DNA of 64,000 nt, taken from assembly GCA_022539475.1 (NCBI GenBank), contig VCMS01000021.1, positions 468,861 through 532,860 on the forward strand, written 5' to 3'. This stretch comes from Gracilaria domingensis. Lineage: Eukaryota > Rhodophyta > Florideophyceae > Gracilariales > Gracilariaceae. Under the pieces are notes generated by a model. It did no database searches, was not told where the DNA came from, and saw only the letters and a program-made list of their open reading frames with translations. Shown piece by piece: positions 11,460 to 47,200 of the stretch (its first letter is position 1; each line of letters starts with the position of its first letter). The position numbers were made by a program, and so were the translations under genes.

Positions 11460-11627
11460 ATGGGTAACAACAGTTCTAAAGCTGACAAAGCTTCAGGTGA
11501 TTCACAACCAATTGAGCAGGAAAACAAAGTTGCCCTTCCGTTCAGGATTCCGAATCCATTTAAGTTTGTATATGAAGTATTGCAAGCGTTTTTCAATGCT
11601 ATGGCATGGGCCTTTAACGACTTCTAA
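11460..11627 (+). CDS. Small protein with N-myristoylation-type start, 55 aa
   Basis: ATG at 11460 gives MGNNSSKADKASGD, a good N-myristoylation signal (Gly2, small residue at 5-6, Lys at 7). The polar first third is followed by a hydrophobic, aromatic tail (VYEVLQAFFNAMAWAFNDF) that could lie on a membrane. The frame continues upstream to 11397 without changing the argument for this start. No homolog is recognised. The short length makes coding uncertain, but the composition and the lipidation motif argue for a real membrane-tethered micropeptide. Confidence 0.45.
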   Translation: MGNNSSKADKASGDSQPIEQENKVALPFRIPNPFKFVYEVLQAFFNAMAWAFNDF

Positions 11628-34882: not shown

Positions 34883-36193
34883 CTAGAGAAGCACAAGAGT
34901 GTTTCTGTCTTTTGGAATAGGGCGACATTTCCAGTTGTAAAGATAGTAATTCAAGGTGCCATCCCCTATATGAAACTTCAGATCTTCAAAAAACTGAGCA
35001 TTCTGCGCAAGGTCCAGGGCATTGAATACGTCAAACTTGTTGTTATGAGCCAGCACCAAGGCGTCCTTCACGAGAGCCTGTATGGAGGTCTTTTTTGGCA
35101 CAATGCAAAAGGCGTAGGCTGCTTGAAGAGTTGTGTGCAAGGGATTGTTAATAACGCTCGATGGAAGTGAGTAGAAGGCAATCAGATCAGTAATATGCTT
35201 GGTTTCGGGGTCTTCAACCACATAGGTATAAATTACACCGTCACGAGGCAAGAGCCAATGTGAGAACTCGTCCTCGTCCATTTCAACGGTGAGCTGAAAG
35301 TCGGACATATACTCTCTCAGCAAAGCGCATGCTTGTGATACGTCGGCTTTGCACATAAGACGGATTCCAGGCACGTTTGTAGCAGAGGTGAGAGAATAAA
35401 GCTTGATGGTGCGTGCCATAGTCATGCGAGGTTTGAGCCTGGAGAAGCCAGTCTCGATGAGCTTCTTGGGGTTGAGCGATCGATGATAATAACGAGAGGA
35501 TGAGACAGGACGTGGCAATAAAGCACCAGCGGTGTACACCGCTTGCCAAATTCCAATGAGATTGACGCGTCGCGTGATCTCGCGGATAAGGACCGGGGCT
35601 AGTCTTTTGGATCGCAGCTTCTTGTGCACACAGAGAAAGTTAATTTCGACCATTCGCAGGGACGAGGTGTGAACATTAATGGTGGCCGGTATGGCGGTGA
35701 TGAACGCGACGAGCTTTTTATTGCTCTTCACGCGCACGCCGACATGCCAGTTCTCTTGCCAGCCCGGTGGAAGCAAAGCCCATCGCAGAAACTCGCGCGA
35801 ATAATCGAAGCGAAACATAGAGGCCCCATCTTCCACGTAGTTCTCGTTAAGAAGTCGGTACGTCTCCTCAAGCTGCTTGTCATCAGTGACATCGATGTCA
35901 CTCCACTCAAAGGAATCAATAAGCGCATATGGATGTTTGGGAACGTCTTCAAGCTTCTTGAGCTCGATAGGCTGTCCTTCATGCTCCATGGCCAACAACT
36001 CATTCTCCTGATTCATCTGCGGCACGGGCTGCGTGCTCCAGAACTTGTACTCCTTGGGCTTGTCGGCGATCGCAGTATTGCCCAGCAACTCGAGCAACTT
36101 TGCGTGCGCCTCGGCGCCCGAGAGCTGCACCTCGCGCACGGGCTTATTGGACGACGAGGCGGCATTGCCGGGGCGATGCGGACGATCGGCCAT
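34883..36193 (-). CDS. NMT1: Glycylpeptide N-tetradecanoyltransferase (N-myristoyltransferase)
   Basis: Attaches myristate to the N-terminal glycine of target proteins in the cytosol. The ATG at 36193 (MADRPHRPG) gives 436 residues; the frame beyond begins with TTG. Family features in order: KFWSTQPVPQ, ALIDSFEWSDIDV, YVEDGASMFRFDYS, WHVGVRV, the signature EINFLCVHKKLRSKRLAPVLI, YTAGALLPRPV, and near the end LKFHIGDGTLNYYLYNWKC. The C-terminus ends in Leu-Leu, whose carboxylate acts in catalysis in known NMTs. No intron. Two other genes of this window have Gly2 myristoylation motifs. Confidence 0.96.
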   Translation of the reverse strand: MADRPHRPGNAASSSNKPVREVQLSGAEAHAKLLELLGNTAIADKPKEYKFWSTQPVPQMNQENELLAMEHEGQPIELKKLEDVPKHPYALIDSFEWSDIDVTDDKQLEETYRLLNENYVEDGASMFRFDYSREFLRWALLPPGWQENWHVGVRVKSNKKLVAFITAIPATINVHTSSLRMVEINFLCVHKKLRSKRLAPVLIREITRRVNLIGIWQAVYTAGALLPRPVSSSRYYHRSLNPKKLIETGFSRLKPRMTMARTIKLYSLTSATNVPGIRLMCKADVSQACALLREYMSDFQLTVEMDEDEFSHWLLPRDGVIYTYVVEDPETKHITDLIAFYSLPSSVINNPLHTTLQAAYAFCIVPKKTSIQALVKDALVLAHNNKFDVFNALDLAQNAQFFEDLKFHIGDGTLNYYLYNWKCRPIPKDRNTLVLL

Positions 36194-36674
36194 GAGCTCA
36201 CAAACGCGCGCTGCTGCCAAAGCAAACGGAGCGCTCGATACGTACGTGTAGACTGCACGGTAATGTTAGATACCTTCGTATTCTATCGGCCGCGAATCTG
36301 CAAATCGGCGCGGCAGAATTTGAGACATGCGCGACCGCTGCGTGCGGGACGCGCAGCCGCACGGTCGAAAAAGCGCCGAAAAGTGCTCGGAAAAAGAGCG
36401 AAAAATCGTCGCCCACCTCGCAGCCGGAAGCAGTCCAAAAATAGATCGGGGTGCAAGATTGCCGCAGACGGCGGTCCGCCGTGCGGTCGGTCTGCTGCCG
36501 CGGTCACGCCCGCGCCGAGCGCGTCGTGCACCTAACGGCTGCGCCAACAAATGGCGTCCACGCGTCGCCGCACTCCGCCTCTGTTACAGACGTGCGGCTC
36601 GGCGTTCCCGTTCTACATAAGCGCCTCTCCGTCTCGACCCCTCGCGCCCGCGTCGAGCTCTCGCATCTCCCGCC
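36194..36674. promoter_or_regulatory. GC-rich divergent promoter, NMT / zinc-finger gene
   Basis: About 480 bp between divergent starts, CpG-rich from 36300. No TATA box is clear. Open frames in it are compositional. Confidence 0.45.
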
Positions 36675-38945: not shown

Positions 38946-39059
38946 AGATATTCCGACCAGGAAGCCGCTGAGCCAGTCGCGTTATACAGCTGGCATCGTG
39001 CACACGCACAGCCACCCCGAGCAAAGCCCTCCACTCCGCGGGCGCCGCCCGAGTTTGCG

Positions 39060-39101
39060 TCGCCGCTCTCCTTCTCGTAGACTACGAGAAGGATAGCGGC
39101 G
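39060..39101. repeat. Imperfect hairpin
   Basis: GCCGCT-CTC-CTTCTCGTAG, one base, then CTACGAGAAG-GAT-AGCGGC. Two paired arms are separated by a 3-base mismatch. It abuts the larger palindrome to the right. Confidence 0.7.
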
Positions 39102-39102
39102 G

Positions 39103-39207
39103 CGTGCCGTCGGCTCTGTGAGAGCACTAGGCACGTGAGGCACTACGACTACGACTACGACTCGTAGTGCCTCACGTGCCTAGTGCTCTCACAGAGCCGA
39201 CGGCACG
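39103..39207. repeat. Large perfect palindrome, 46-bp arms, 13-bp loop
   Basis: Arm 39103-39148 is exactly complementary to 39162-39207; the loop is CTACGACTACGAC, itself a partial triplet repeat. No mismatch in 46 bp implies recent origin or active maintenance. It encodes nothing apparent. Confidence 0.9.
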
Positions 39208-40273
39208 TCGCAAGTTGGCTTTGCCAAACTTGGAAACCATGGTGTGTAACTCATGGTAAAAAGTTTTGCAGCGAAATATATTAATCTTTTATCGTATCAT
39301 CTCTCGAATCGAGAGTCTCGATGATACGTTGGATCGCACACGCACGAAAACCGTCTGCCATTTTGGCGCAGGCTAAACTGGAGTGTAGGAAAACGCCTCC
39401 AGGTGTGCCCTTCGTGCTACACTTGGCGCTTTCTATCTACTCATTCTTTATTTCTGCGCGGTACTGCGACCAAGTCCAGCTTTTCTTAACCGCAAGTTTT
39501 GGTGATGATGTCTCTTCACTGTTTGGTGTGATCATGATCATGATGACCATACAAAATTGAAATATCGATAAGAGCATTCATTTTCAAGGAGATTGAGGGG
39601 CTCGAAGCGCCGCGGTGGAGCGGGCGACAGCGTGGAATCAGAAGGGCCGAGAACAAGAGCGACTCAGATTGCTTGTACTGTGCAAAAGCTTCAAGGTCGG
39701 CACAAAGTTGATGCGCAATTATCAAGGGCACGCACACAAGTTTGCGTGTGCTTGAGCTGTGTGGCTTGGACGCAGAAGAATCTTTGAGATGATTCGAATA
39801 CGGAGGGGAAGCTGCGGCAGAGGACAAAGGAGAATAAAAAGCCCTAGATGGATGGAGTCACGTGAGCGCGCATTTGGCAAAACCCTAGGCATGTCGCGCC
39901 GTGATTGGCTGTTGTATTTGGACCGCCGCGGTGAAGGTACCCCTGACGGGCGCGTATGCCCGTGCATGCGTGGACAGCAGCGCCACGTGCGACGGCGTGC
40001 ATCGGCTTCCTGTCTATTCAAGCCAAGATTCGCGTGCGTCGCATGCGCTTACATGTGCAACGCGCGACACACGGCAGACGGCACGAAGCGGAGCGCGGTG
40101 CTTTGTTCGGTATCTTCTACCGTCGTCGTCCCTTTTCCATCTACTTTTCGTTGCCGTTTTATCGCTCCCTTGCAACCATTCCGTCCAACGCGTCTGACCG
40201 AGCGTCGTCCGCCAAGGGGCGCCAGCTGCTTTCTGGACTTTCTGAAACTGTTGCCTCCTGTTTCCGCCCCCTC
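39208..40273. other. Upstream region of the kinase gene
   Basis: The sequence AATAAAAAG at about 39833 is TATA-like, but it lies 440 bp before the chosen ATG, so the leader may be long or hold upstream ATGs. No separate gene is supported. Confidence 0.35.
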
Positions 40274-43037
40274 ATGGGCAATAGCTTCACCAAACATGCC
40301 CATCCTCCTCCGTCGCGCTCCCACGATGAAGATGGCGCCCGTCTGCTTGGCCTGCAGAACAACCTCAAGCAGAGTGAGATAGATACTTTAATTGATTATT
40401 ACAAGAAGATGGACCCAGAAAACGAAGGTTTGCTTCCTGAACAGTTCAAGCAAGCCACTGGGGATTTCTTTGCCACCGAGCTCACCATTGACCCTAAACT
40501 GGTGTTCAACATTTTCGACATTGCGGAAGGCGGTGTGCAGGGCCGTGTTACGCTCCGTGAATTCATCTTGGGTTATGCCGTTCTTTGTCGTGGCACCACC
40601 GAAAGTCGTCTTAACTATTTGTTTTCCATTTATGATAATTCTCAAGACGGAAAGGGCTTTCTCTCGAGAGATCAGCTATGCAGCGCCTTGAAGCTCGTGC
40701 AGAGAATTGCCTCTGAGCTCACGGACTCTGTAGAACAACTTGACGGCCGCGAAAATGAAACCCGGATCCAGGCCGTTGCCGACCAAATCATAGCCGACTC
40801 ATCAGACCCTAAGAACGAAGCCATTTCATACGCCGACTTTATTGAACAACTGAAGAGCGATGATAATGTGACAGAATGGCTCGATGAGCTACAGTCAGCC
40901 GCCGGTGAGCATTTGAAGTACATCGAAAAGCGCGAACTCGATCTTGCACAGCTAAATATGCAGAGAAATGGCCTTCTGCAAGCGGATACTTCTCCACATC
41001 CCCATGGTAGTATGGAGTGGAATGCGCCCTCTTCCACGCCTTCGTCCTCTAGCTCTGGAAAGCGACCTCGTATTCCAAAGCCCAAGAAACAAAAGCTTGT
41101 TCGACGCGATTTGAAACACCCTCGCCTGGATTTGCAGCGCTCCGCCTCTCGGAAAGACGACGCCGATGACGACGCTAACGAGGACTTGAATGCCGCCATG
41201 CCCTTTATCATCAATTATGACGACATCAAGTTTGGCAAGATTCTCGGAAGAGGTGCTTGCGCAACGGTATATGAGTGCCAGTGGATGCACGTCCCTGTGG
41301 CTGTGAAGGTTTTCAAAGACGGCCGTGGCGATGCGGCTGGTGTGGACAAGCTCTCCACTTCTGTCGAAGAGAGTCGAAGGGATGTTGTTGGTGATTACGT
41401 GGAGGAGTTTTGGCTGCTTTTGCAAATACGACATCCGAACTGCTTGCTTTACATGGGTATATGTTTTGAACCGGTGGTCTGCATCGTTACAGAGTTGTAC
41501 ACCGGTGGTTCGGTGGCTAATTATCTGCATGGTCCAAACCCCCGGCGCTTCGCTCCACAGAAAGCAGTTGAAATGCTATGTGGAGTAGCTCGTGGCATGT
41601 ACTATCTTCATGCCTCTTCACCACCAATTTTGCACAGGGACTTGAAAACCAGTAACATTCTTATCAACCAAGCACTAACTCATTGTGTGATTTGCGACTT
41701 TGGCCTCAGTCGGCAGTTTGTCAGCAATGCTTCTGGTGTGCATCTTAGTAGTTCTGGAAAGCCGGGAAAAGGGGGCATAGTCGGAACACCGTACACTATG
41801 GCGCCGGAGATAATGGAGCTCAAGCCATACACCCCGGCTGCCGACGTGTACTCGTTTGGAATCGTAATGTACGAGATGTACACTGGAAGGTTTCCGTTTG
41901 CAAAAAAGACGCCTATACAGGTCATGTTTCACGTTGTCGAAGGAAACAGACCGCCCTTTTGTGAGGAAGATCGAGTACCCAAAATTCTTGAGAACCTTAT
42001 CAAGAAGTGTTGGGCGCAAAACCCTGACGACAGGCCAAGTTTTGAGGAAATTCTGAACATACTAACGAGCGATACTCTTGCAACAGAACTCTCGCAGAGA
42101 CAGACAATGTCTGTTAAACGGCGAAGCCTCTTGGGATCTGCACATGAGGAACCAGATGAGGAACCAGATGAAGATGATCTTGCAAAGCGACTACTTGAAG
42201 CTGTGTACAGAGGGCAGACGGAGTTAGTTGGTCGGTTGATTGACAGAGGCGCAAAGGTGAACTACTCTGACTATGACAAACGAACCGCTCTTCATGTTGG
42301 TAGGTCGGCCAAACTTCCTTTCTCGTATCGAACGGTTTATGTCCATGAATCTTACTAACATTTAATGACTTTGTATTCTTGATCCGCTGATAGCCGCGGC
42401 AGAAGGGCGCACGGCATGCATTAGACTGTTAATTTCTGCTGGTGCGAGACTGTCGTTCGACAGGTGGAATAACTCACCCCTCGTTGACGCTATGAATTAC
42501 GCCAATCGATCGGGGGATAGTGAACCTATACGATTGCTGAGATCCATCGAAGGTAGAATCTCTGGCCATGTTGAGGGATCTGGCATTCTCGATTCTCATC
42601 ACAAAGAGAACTTGTTGAATCAAGCTGCCATGATCGCGGCCGCAGATGGTGATGTGGGCAGCATGTCCAAGCTCATCATGACGGGGTTAGATGTGAACTG
42701 CTCTGATTACGATCGCCGCACACCACTGATGGTAAGTTGTTGTACAGGATTTTCGCTCATCTCACGCCCAAAGGCAACGCGGTTCGCATTCATGTCTTTC
42801 TAACGGTTGGGAAACACTTGATACGATTCTGTGACGCAGGTGGCTTCTTCGGAGGGGCGTCGAGACATCGTGCAGTTACTGCTTCAGAACGGTGCTGATG
42901 TAGATCACCGTGACCGGTGGGGCTCAACTGCGATTCATGAAGCTGAAAGAGGAGGATATCATGATATCTTACAACTTCTCACATCCGCAGACAAAGGAGT
43001 TTCTGAGACATCACCGGTTGCAATGAGTGTATCCTGA
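40274..43037 (+). CDS. EF-hand / TKL (Raf-like) kinase / ankyrin fusion protein
   Basis: Three exons (40274-42299, 42394-42731, 42840-43037) give 853 residues; introns are 94 and 108 bp, the first with a perfect TACTAAC branch site. The start MGNSFTKHAH is a myristoylation-type N-terminus. Residues about 30-200 resemble the calcineurin-B EF-hand family (FNIFDIAEGGVQGRVTLREFI; YDNSQDGKGFLSRDQL); the canonical loops look partly degenerate. A basic linker follows, then a TKL kinase: LGRGACATVYE, VAVKVF, HRDLKTSN (about 454), DFGLS, APE. The C-terminus has ankyrin repeats (ALHVAAAEGRTACIRLL; DIVQLLLQNGADVDHRD). It probably senses calcium at a membrane, by inference. Some upstream frame is open to 39956. 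Confidence 0.88.
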
Positions 43038-44202: not shown

Positions 44203-47200
44203 ATGGCAGAACCGAATCTCTCCGAGTTGGGTGTCAATGCGCAGAATGTAGAAGATGTGGAAGAAGCGATATTTGCACATGCAGAAGTCCAAGCCAGAAA
44301 TGCTGAGGAGCAAGAACTGGATTCTAACTTAGAAAAGCTGGACCAGGATTTGAAGTCTTTGCGAGCGGAGGAGAAGCTTCTTCTGCAATCATCCTTCTCC
44401 ACACGAACAAACCGCCGTTTGAGTCTATTCAAGAAAAGATTAGAGTAGTTCAAGGAAAAAGGATGAAACTCCTCGAAGCTAATGAAGCACGCCAAGAGAT
44501 CAGCAAGAAAACGAATCTGGTCCAAGCCGCTATCGCCGATGATGAACGGAAGCCTGGTGAATCTGAACATGATTTTCTTGTGAGGACGGGTCGCGTCACT
44601 CCATTTCAAGGGCAGTCCGAATATCAAGGGAGTCAGAATATAACTTCTGGCGTTGTTCGTCGAAGGGTAAAAGCTTCGTTGCAAGATGAAAATCGAAATG
44701 ATAAGGACGACGAAATGACAGTTGAAAAAGAAAGCGGGAATTCCACTAGACGCGGAAGATCGTCTCGTTTACGTGATTACTCGGGTAGACATGCTAAAGG
44801 GACAAAATGTAGTAGTTTGGAAGATGAAGATGAATATCGCCCAAGCGAATCGGAAGAAGAAGCTGATTATTCGGACGATAACAGTTCGTTGAGCCATATT
44901 GGCAAGGGCACAAAGAAGAAAAGAAAGGGAAATTTTGAAGAAGCTTTCGAATTTGCGGACGAAGAGGATGAAGAAAAGGAGTCTGAGGAATTTCAACAAC
45001 AGTCCACAGAAGGCGATGACTGGGTTATGGCTGAAGAGGAAGAAGTTGAACTTGACGGTGGCCTCAGAATGCCTTGTTCTATATATGATAAGCTTTTTGA
45101 CTACCAGAAGACAGGGGTAAGGAGATCTATTCACTGCGAGATTAACTTCCGTTTCGACTCTCCTCCATCAAGCGTGAAAAGCACTAACACTTTAATGGAC
45201 TATTCTGCGTGGGGCAGGTTCAATGGCTTTGGGAACTTCATACACAAGGGACGGGGGGTATTCTTGGAGACGAAATGGGCCTAGGAAAAACAGTTCAAAT
45301 TGTGGCGTTCTTGGCAGCCTTAAACTACAGTGGGAAGCTCCGGGGGTCTGTTCTTATTATAGCCCCAACAACAGTTTTGCGCCAATGGCTTCGAGAATTT
45401 CGTGCCTGGTGGCCTCGGTTTCGTGTTCGAATTCTCCATCACTCATACGAGCCACCAACCCAAAGAAAGAAAAAGAAAAGGAGAATGCACTCAAAGTATA
45501 ATCCTGAAAACATTGTCGGCGATGTCGTGAATGGTCGTCATGGCGTTCTCATCACCAGCTATGAGCAAGTGAGGAAAAATCACGCCATGTTAACAGAAAG
45601 GTTTCACTATGTATTCGCCGATGAAGGACACAAATTGAAATCTCCTGATGCAGAAATCACAATCACTTGTAAGAGATTCGACACTCCTCATCGAATAATC
45701 GTCAGCGGATCTCCATTGCAGAATCATCTGAAGGAGCTATGGAGTCTATTCGATTTTGTGTTTCCAGGAAAACTCGGAACGCTTCCTGTTTTTCAGGAAC
45801 AATTCGTCGTCCCAATTACCATGGGCGGGTATGCGACCGCGAGCAAGTCTCAAGTACACACAGCATACAAGTGCTCCGTAATATTGCGTGATTTGATATC
45901 GCCCTATCTTCTGCGAAGGTTGAAGAAAGATGTCGCGAAGCAGCTCCCGAAAAAGAGCGAACAAATTTTATTTGTTCGTTTGACTCCTGAGCAGCGCGAG
46001 AAGTACAAAAAGTTCTTAAAGTCCAGGTTTGTCCGACAAGTTCTGCAAGGCAAATTGAACCTCCTCTACGCTATTACTGCTCTTCGAAAAGTTTGTAATC
46101 ACTGCGATATTCCTCTGTTCCACAACGACCATGATGCGGATATATCAAGAGGAATAGTGGTTCTAGAAAACGCGAGCTTCAAACGTAAGAAGACTATCAA
46201 AGGCAGAGTTTTTCATTCCGTAGAAGATAAGGAGGAACGCCCGGTTGATTATGGAAATTGGCGACGATCAGGAAAGCTGATTGTCTTAAACCGGGTTCTA
46301 GAAGCATGGCACACTGCCAGAAGTAGAGTTCTTATCTTCAGTCAAACAAGGACGATGTTAGATATTCTCGAATCGTTTGTCAAAGAAAGGAACTACACTT
46401 ATCAAAGAATGGACGGTGAGACACCCGTTGGATCCCGCATGGAGCTTATAGATAATTTCAATAGTGACCAGACCATATTCATTTTTTTGTTGACAACCAG
46501 AGTTGGTGGTCTAGGAGTGAACTTGACTGGTGCAGACCGAGTGGTACTGTATGATCCCGATTGGAATCCAAGTGTAGACCTTCAAGCAAGGGAACGAGCC
46601 TGGCGCGTGGGACAAACGAAGCCAGTTACCGTATACAGGTTTGTCACAACTGGAACGATTGAAGAAAAGATCTATCACAGGCAGGTAAGTTTTATGTTTC
46701 GATTGAAGTTTGTGCACTTTGAAGGGAACGAAGTAGTTTGTTGACAGGGACTTTTTTCTTTCCACTACTGATATCGGTTCTACAGATATACAAACAGTTC
46801 TTGACGAATAAGGTTCTGAGCGATCCTCGTCAACGTCGGTTTTTCAAACCGAAACACATCAAGGACTTGTTCACTCTGGGACAAGACGACGACAATGGGA
46901 CTGAAACTGGGGATATCTTTTCTGGTACAAAAGCAAAAGAAATGAGAGCCTCCAAGGCTGCAGATATAGAAAATGGGGCGGATTCGGAGAAGAATGACAC
47001 AAACGGCACAAGCAATTCTGAGGATGGAAACGCAAAGCTGTTGAACTCTTTGTTGGACGACACTGCAGAAGGTCAGCTTTCGAGCACTATGAATCATGAT
47101 GCTATTCTAAACGCCGGAAACGAAGTTAAGGACGTCGGTGTGGTTGAATACGAAGCAAATAAGATCGCGCGAGAAGCAATAGAAGAGTTGAAACGCTCTA

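Follow-up and report, generated by a model that had tools for sequence, protein, structure and literature searches.

Gene organization and domain architecture

The gene described here lies in a 64-kb stretch of Gracilaria domingensis DNA (contig C21; VCMS01000021.1, positions 468,861 to 532,860), hereafter the window; the genome searched amounts to 77.9 Mb. Once two GT-AG introns are spliced, its reading frame runs from the ATG at 40274 to a stop ending at 43037. Analysis of this sequence confirmed that a single gene encodes a predicted EF-hand-fold N-terminus of NCS/calcineurin-B type, a tyrosine kinase-like (TKL) kinase, and ankyrin repeats, the last with matches within residues 641–839 (Table 1). 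Exon 1 is 2026 nt in length, free of stops, and holds the EF region, the kinase, and the first ankyrin repeat. The fusion is therefore independent of splicing, which is needed only for the ankyrin repeats after the first. Nor is the order of the EF region and kinase a local artefact, as a diverged paralog (C104) repeats it in one open frame. A preliminary description of the gene had proposed a single chain, a myristoylation-type start, an EF region of calcineurin-B type, a TKL kinase, and this order of domains; each of these was borne out.

Table 1. Features of the kinase gene and of the N-myristoyltransferase gene in the window.
Feature	Coordinates	Strand	Basis or detail
Kinase gene, whole	40274-43037	+	3 exons: 40274-42299, 42394-42731, 42840-43037; 853 aa
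MGNSFTKHAH, N-myristoylation-type motif (G2, T6, K7)	40274..40303	+	motif match
EF-hand-fold domain, NCS/calcineurin-B type, residues 17-215; four helix-loop-helix units, four degenerate loops	40322..40918	+	
Ser-rich linker (residues 216-317), basic followed by acidic	40919..41224	+	sequence
TKL (Raf/CTR1-like) kinase, residues 318-596	41225..42061	+	PF07714 (PK_Tyr_Ser-Thr) E 2.7e-48
First ankyrin repeat, same exon as kinase	42194..42299	+	Pfam Ank_4 641-689; exon end 42299
Intron 1	42300..42393	+	GT-AG, 94 nt
Exon 2, ankyrin repeats	42394..42731	+	splicing and Pfam
Intron 2	42732..42839	+	GT-AG, 108 nt
Exon 3, end of the ankyrin array (about residue 839) and stop codon	42840..43037	+	splicing and Pfam
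N-myristoyltransferase gene (context, outside kinase protein)	34883..36220	-	ORF 445 aa

The reading frame of the kinase gene is open upstream as far as an ATG at 39956, and the start at 40274 therefore had to be checked. A codon score gives a rough test, because one neighboring open reading frame (ORF) and some of the kinase sequence of this gene were used to train it. Per codon, the stretch 39956-40273 scored -0.21, as compared to a mean of -0.08 for an intergenic control and +0.02 for the EF region, the alternative frames of which scored -0.13 and -0.09. The upstream stretch thus looks non-coding, making ATG 40274 the likely start.

The protein begins with MGNSFTK, which fits a strict N-myristoylation motif (MG-{EDRKHPFYW}-x-x-[ST]-K). 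Of the 2150 ATGs in the window, both strands counted, 2 begin this strict form and 23 a looser, PROSITE-like one. The other strict match, at 11460 (+), opens a 55-aa ORF beginning MGNNSSKA. The genome also has an N-myristoyltransferase (NMT) gene, the sole PF01233 match in it (E 3.5e-74 at C21:504358-504825), whose ORF has both the NMT (8.5e-76) and NMT_C (7.7e-72) domains. Lipidation of the kinase protein at its N-terminal glycine is predicted from the motif and the presence of this enzyme. An N-terminal myristoyl glycine is common to many NCS/calcineurin-B members.

EF-hand-fold domain and its calcium loops

The EF-hand character of the N-terminus is only weakly detected by Pfam (EF-hand_7, residues 110–191; E 0.00038 with the N-terminus alone, 21.2 bits as against a cut-off of 30). 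Among solved structures compared by phmmer, residues 1–237 matched KChIP4 (3.7e-12, covering residues 17–201), neurocalcin (6.6e-12), hippocalcin (1.4e-11), and calcineurin B (3.6e-7). A predicted structural model of the domain is of modest confidence (mean pLDDT 58). Foldseek related this model first to KChIP1 and NCS-1, and also to neurocalcin, with E about 1e-4 and prob 1.00; normalized by query length, the TM-scores were below 0.5. Together, the phmmer and Foldseek matches point to the four helix-loop-helix EF-hands of the NCS/calcineurin-B superfamily; an EF-hand fold in structure prediction had been named beforehand as a test of the gene's proposed architecture.

Members of this superfamily usually have two or more working calcium loops. 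The canonical EF-hand loop pattern (PS00018) was found nowhere in the window protein, but twice each in C104, this genome's calcineurin B, C5, C62, and a calmodulin-like fragment; it occurred once in C347 and was absent from C130. The two canonical loops of C104 (DTDSSGNLNAAE and DLDRDGVIGFED) belong to its third and fourth EF-hands. Aligned to C104, loops 1 to 4 of the window protein read DPENEGLLP-EQ, GVQGR--VTLRE, DNSQDGKGFLSRDQ, and SDPKNEAISYAD, as compared to DEEGRGFLTREQ, YSTGEETLSLRE, DT--DSSGNLNAAE, and DLDRDGVIGFED in C104. Loops 1, 2, and 3 of the window protein carry insertions or deletions relative to those of C104, and in the aligned register loop 4 opens with Ser rather than Asp. 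Because C104 keeps canonical third and fourth loops and the window protein has none, we do not accept the proposal of the preliminary description that the window protein is itself a calcium sensor. A pattern of conserved helices (the binding groove) with decaying loops was also considered and was unsupported, with identical columns numbering 14 of 80 in the flanks and 16 of 50 in the loops.

Kinase and ankyrin domains

The kinase domain retains VAVK (from residue 342), HRDLKTSN (from 454), DFG (from 475), and MAPE (from 509), and thus the catalytic Lys, HRD, and DFG motifs of a TKL kinase predicted to be active. When compared alone to solved kinases, the region matched CTR1 best (6.6e-39), followed by TAK1 (5.2e-38), B-Raf (2e-34), and MLK4 (2.7e-34). 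The ankyrin repeats score above the Pfam cut-off (Ank_2 E 1.4e-25, 90.1 bits as against 27.3).

In a tree of 14 kinase domains, the window kinase falls among the other PF07714 members, apart from two kinases labeled by eye as STE and CAMK (98/96). It groups with the kinase of C104 (92/91), and the C130 kinase (39% identical) is next to this pair (83/88); support for both groupings is moderate, since neither node was starred.

In C104, the N-terminus by itself matches EF-hand_7 at 6.9e-17 and the TKL kinase is matched at 9.7e-48, with a stop immediately after the kinase. A search in which 150 of 213 candidates were scored gave 145 ankyrin matches, none of them at C104, so that no ankyrin tail was found for it. 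The C104 frame, for which the start position is provisional, showed no MG start. The N-terminus of C130, a third paralog, looks EF-like by eye, but gave nothing with Pfam or phmmer, an hhalign probability of 0.3%, and a single-sequence model with a pLDDT of only 41.5.

Other EF-hand-kinase loci in the genome

When the 25 EF-hand_7 matches in the genome were compared to kinase positions, five matches fell at four kinase loci. The EF-hands precede the kinase at C104 and C347 and follow a TKL-grouped kinase at C5 and C62. The latter two (L030 1206-3215, +; L031 1468-3456, -) carry an EF-hand pair C-terminal to the kinase, with two canonical loops in each protein, and form a separate pair in the tree (100/99), which points to a second, independent TKL-EF fusion. 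C347 (L029 1-3519, -) starts with MGNA, and its EF-hands are followed by a Ser/Thr kinase that is CAMK-like by eye.

No gene with a CAMK kinase followed by EF-hands, as in the calcium-dependent protein kinases (CDPKs), was found among the 25 matches in this incomplete, exon-wise comparison. In one search 124 of 238 kinase candidates were scored and in another 134 of 143, with the C104 kinase absent from the 124; the EF loci C152, C112, C2, C25:106173, C76, and C181 were judged by position only. Outside this genome, 279 pattern matches in viral_contigs and 154 in genome_contigs yielded no confirmed relative. These collections hold viruses and prokaryotes and therefore have no bearing on other eukaryotes.

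Comparison with known systems

The most familiar fusions of EF-hands with a kinase are the CDPKs. As in these and in calmodulin-fused kinases, an EF-hand domain and a kinase occupy one chain in the window protein. Unlike a CDPK, however, the window protein has a TKL rather than a CAMK kinase, an EF region that is N-terminal and of NCS/calcineurin-B type rather than C-terminal, no canonical loops, and an ankyrin tail. The plant CBL-CIPK system likewise joins a calcineurin-B-like, often myristoylated sensor to a kinase, but as two polypeptides and with a kinase of SnRK3 type, whereas the window protein is one chain with a TKL kinase. Plant ankyrin-TKL proteins (ILK, or Raf group C1) likewise combine a Raf-like kinase with ankyrin repeats; their ankyrin repeats are N-terminal, as opposed to C-terminal here, and they are not known to have an EF domain. 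The closest matches in sequence and fold are NCS proteins and calcineurin B, which share the four-EF-hand fold. These are stand-alone and calcium-binding, whereas the domain in the window protein is fused and without canonical loops. The calcineurin B of this genome also has an MG start.

Some groups of CDPKs and calmodulin-fused kinases are reported to be N-myristoylated (PMC5482843), and the CRKs to have degenerate EF-hands and to be likely calcium-independent (PMC11989534). In Phytophthora PITG_08008, EF-hands at the N-terminus reportedly stand ahead of a PH domain and a kinase that is treated with the CAMK family; a weak EF consensus and negative 45Ca binding were described (PMC3019232). 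It resembles the window protein in having EF-hands ahead of the kinase, and the window protein differs in its TKL kinase, ankyrin repeats, and NCS/calcineurin-B-type EF domain. The order of domains is not unique, in view of C104 and PITG_08008. EF-hand-kinase fusions are already known, and N-terminal EF-hands before a kinase have been reported. Among the titles and abstract openings listed from open-licence full-text literature, none described an EF-hand-TKL-ankyrin protein or a TKL kinase preceded by an NCS/calcineurin-B-type EF domain, with or without ankyrin repeats.

Interpretation

The window gene probably encodes a single-chain, N-myristoylated TKL kinase whose NCS/calcineurin-B-type EF domain has lost its calcium loops, with C104 as its likely calcium-responsive sister. 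The myristoyl group and ankyrin tail would place the kinase at the membrane and on its partners. The EF-fold domain may serve in regulation or docking without dependence on calcium, by analogy to plant CRKs with degenerate EF-hands, and the kinase of C104 would be switched when its C-terminal lobe binds calcium. The occurrence of the window gene beside C104 might then parallel that of CRKs beside CDPKs in plants. Loss of the PS00018 pattern is in itself no proof of loss of binding.

One alternative is that the window protein is a working single-chain calcium-sensor kinase, its altered loops binding calcium non-canonically and releasing the kinase from inhibition. The EF fold is kept, all four loops still have acidic residues, and a paralog with the same order of domains has two canonical loops. 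We consider this unlikely, given the lack of any canonical loop in the window protein, the insertions and deletions in three loops relative to C104, and the Ser at the first position of the fourth. That the gene is decaying, with the EF domain a relic and the kinase without a conserved role, would accord with the degeneration of four loops out of four, but appears quite improbable, as all three exons are open and bounded by GT-AG splice sites, the catalytic motifs are retained, and the terminal branch of the kinase (1.01) is no longer than the tree median (1.01). It is very improbable that two neighboring genes, one for an EF-hand protein and one for a kinase, were mistaken for one, as might be imagined from the low-complexity linker, since the junction is covered by a stop-free exon, the EF region has a better codon score in frame than in the other two frames, and C104 has the identical order in one frame.

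A broader scheme may be put forward tentatively. Red algae without CDPKs might have built calcium-to-phosphorylation relays on TKL kinases, in an EF-then-TKL form (C104 and the window gene) and a separately fused TKL-then-EF form (C5 and C62), with the window gene as a membrane-anchored, calcium-uncoupled branch. Two reports contrast on the premise: in one, four sequenced red algae yielded a gene for a fusion of the CDPK kind in a single species (PMC5482843), whereas the other states that CDPKs occur in red algae (PMC8618852). The presence in one genome of NCS/calcineurin-B-Raf-like fusions in calcium-competent and apparently calcium-uncoupled versions offers a candidate route from calcium to phosphorylation in a red alga, and the window gene and C104 form a natural pair for asking what effect an EF domain has on a TKL kinase.

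Neighboring genes and other features

The NMT gene lies ~4 kb from the myristoylation-type kinase gene, in divergent orientation, although gene neighborhood says little about function in eukaryotes. An inverted repeat (39099-39211), about 1.1 kb ahead of the start of the kinase gene, has 50-nt arms that are 98% complementary and 13 nt apart, and a second, with 23-nt arms, is at 39058-39104. Downstream of the kinase gene is an exon of a SNF2-type helicase (45209-46744, +; SNF2-rel_dom 2.3e-78, Helicase_C 4.6e-25).

Two other kinase fusions were observed in the genome. One starts with MGNG and has a TIR domain ahead of a TKL kinase (L023 2754-5372, -; TIR_2 5.6e-10, with an identical-score match at C457), and in the other a kinase matching PF07714 and PF00069 shares one frame with a PP2C phosphatase (L027 2633-4621, +). 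In keeping with a red algal origin, phycobilisome-linker matches occur at 14 places in the genome, 10 of them off contig C680. This contig carries a Rubisco large subunit; among solved structures it matches 8bdb first and then 1bwv/1iwa, from the red algae Griffithsia and Galdieria.
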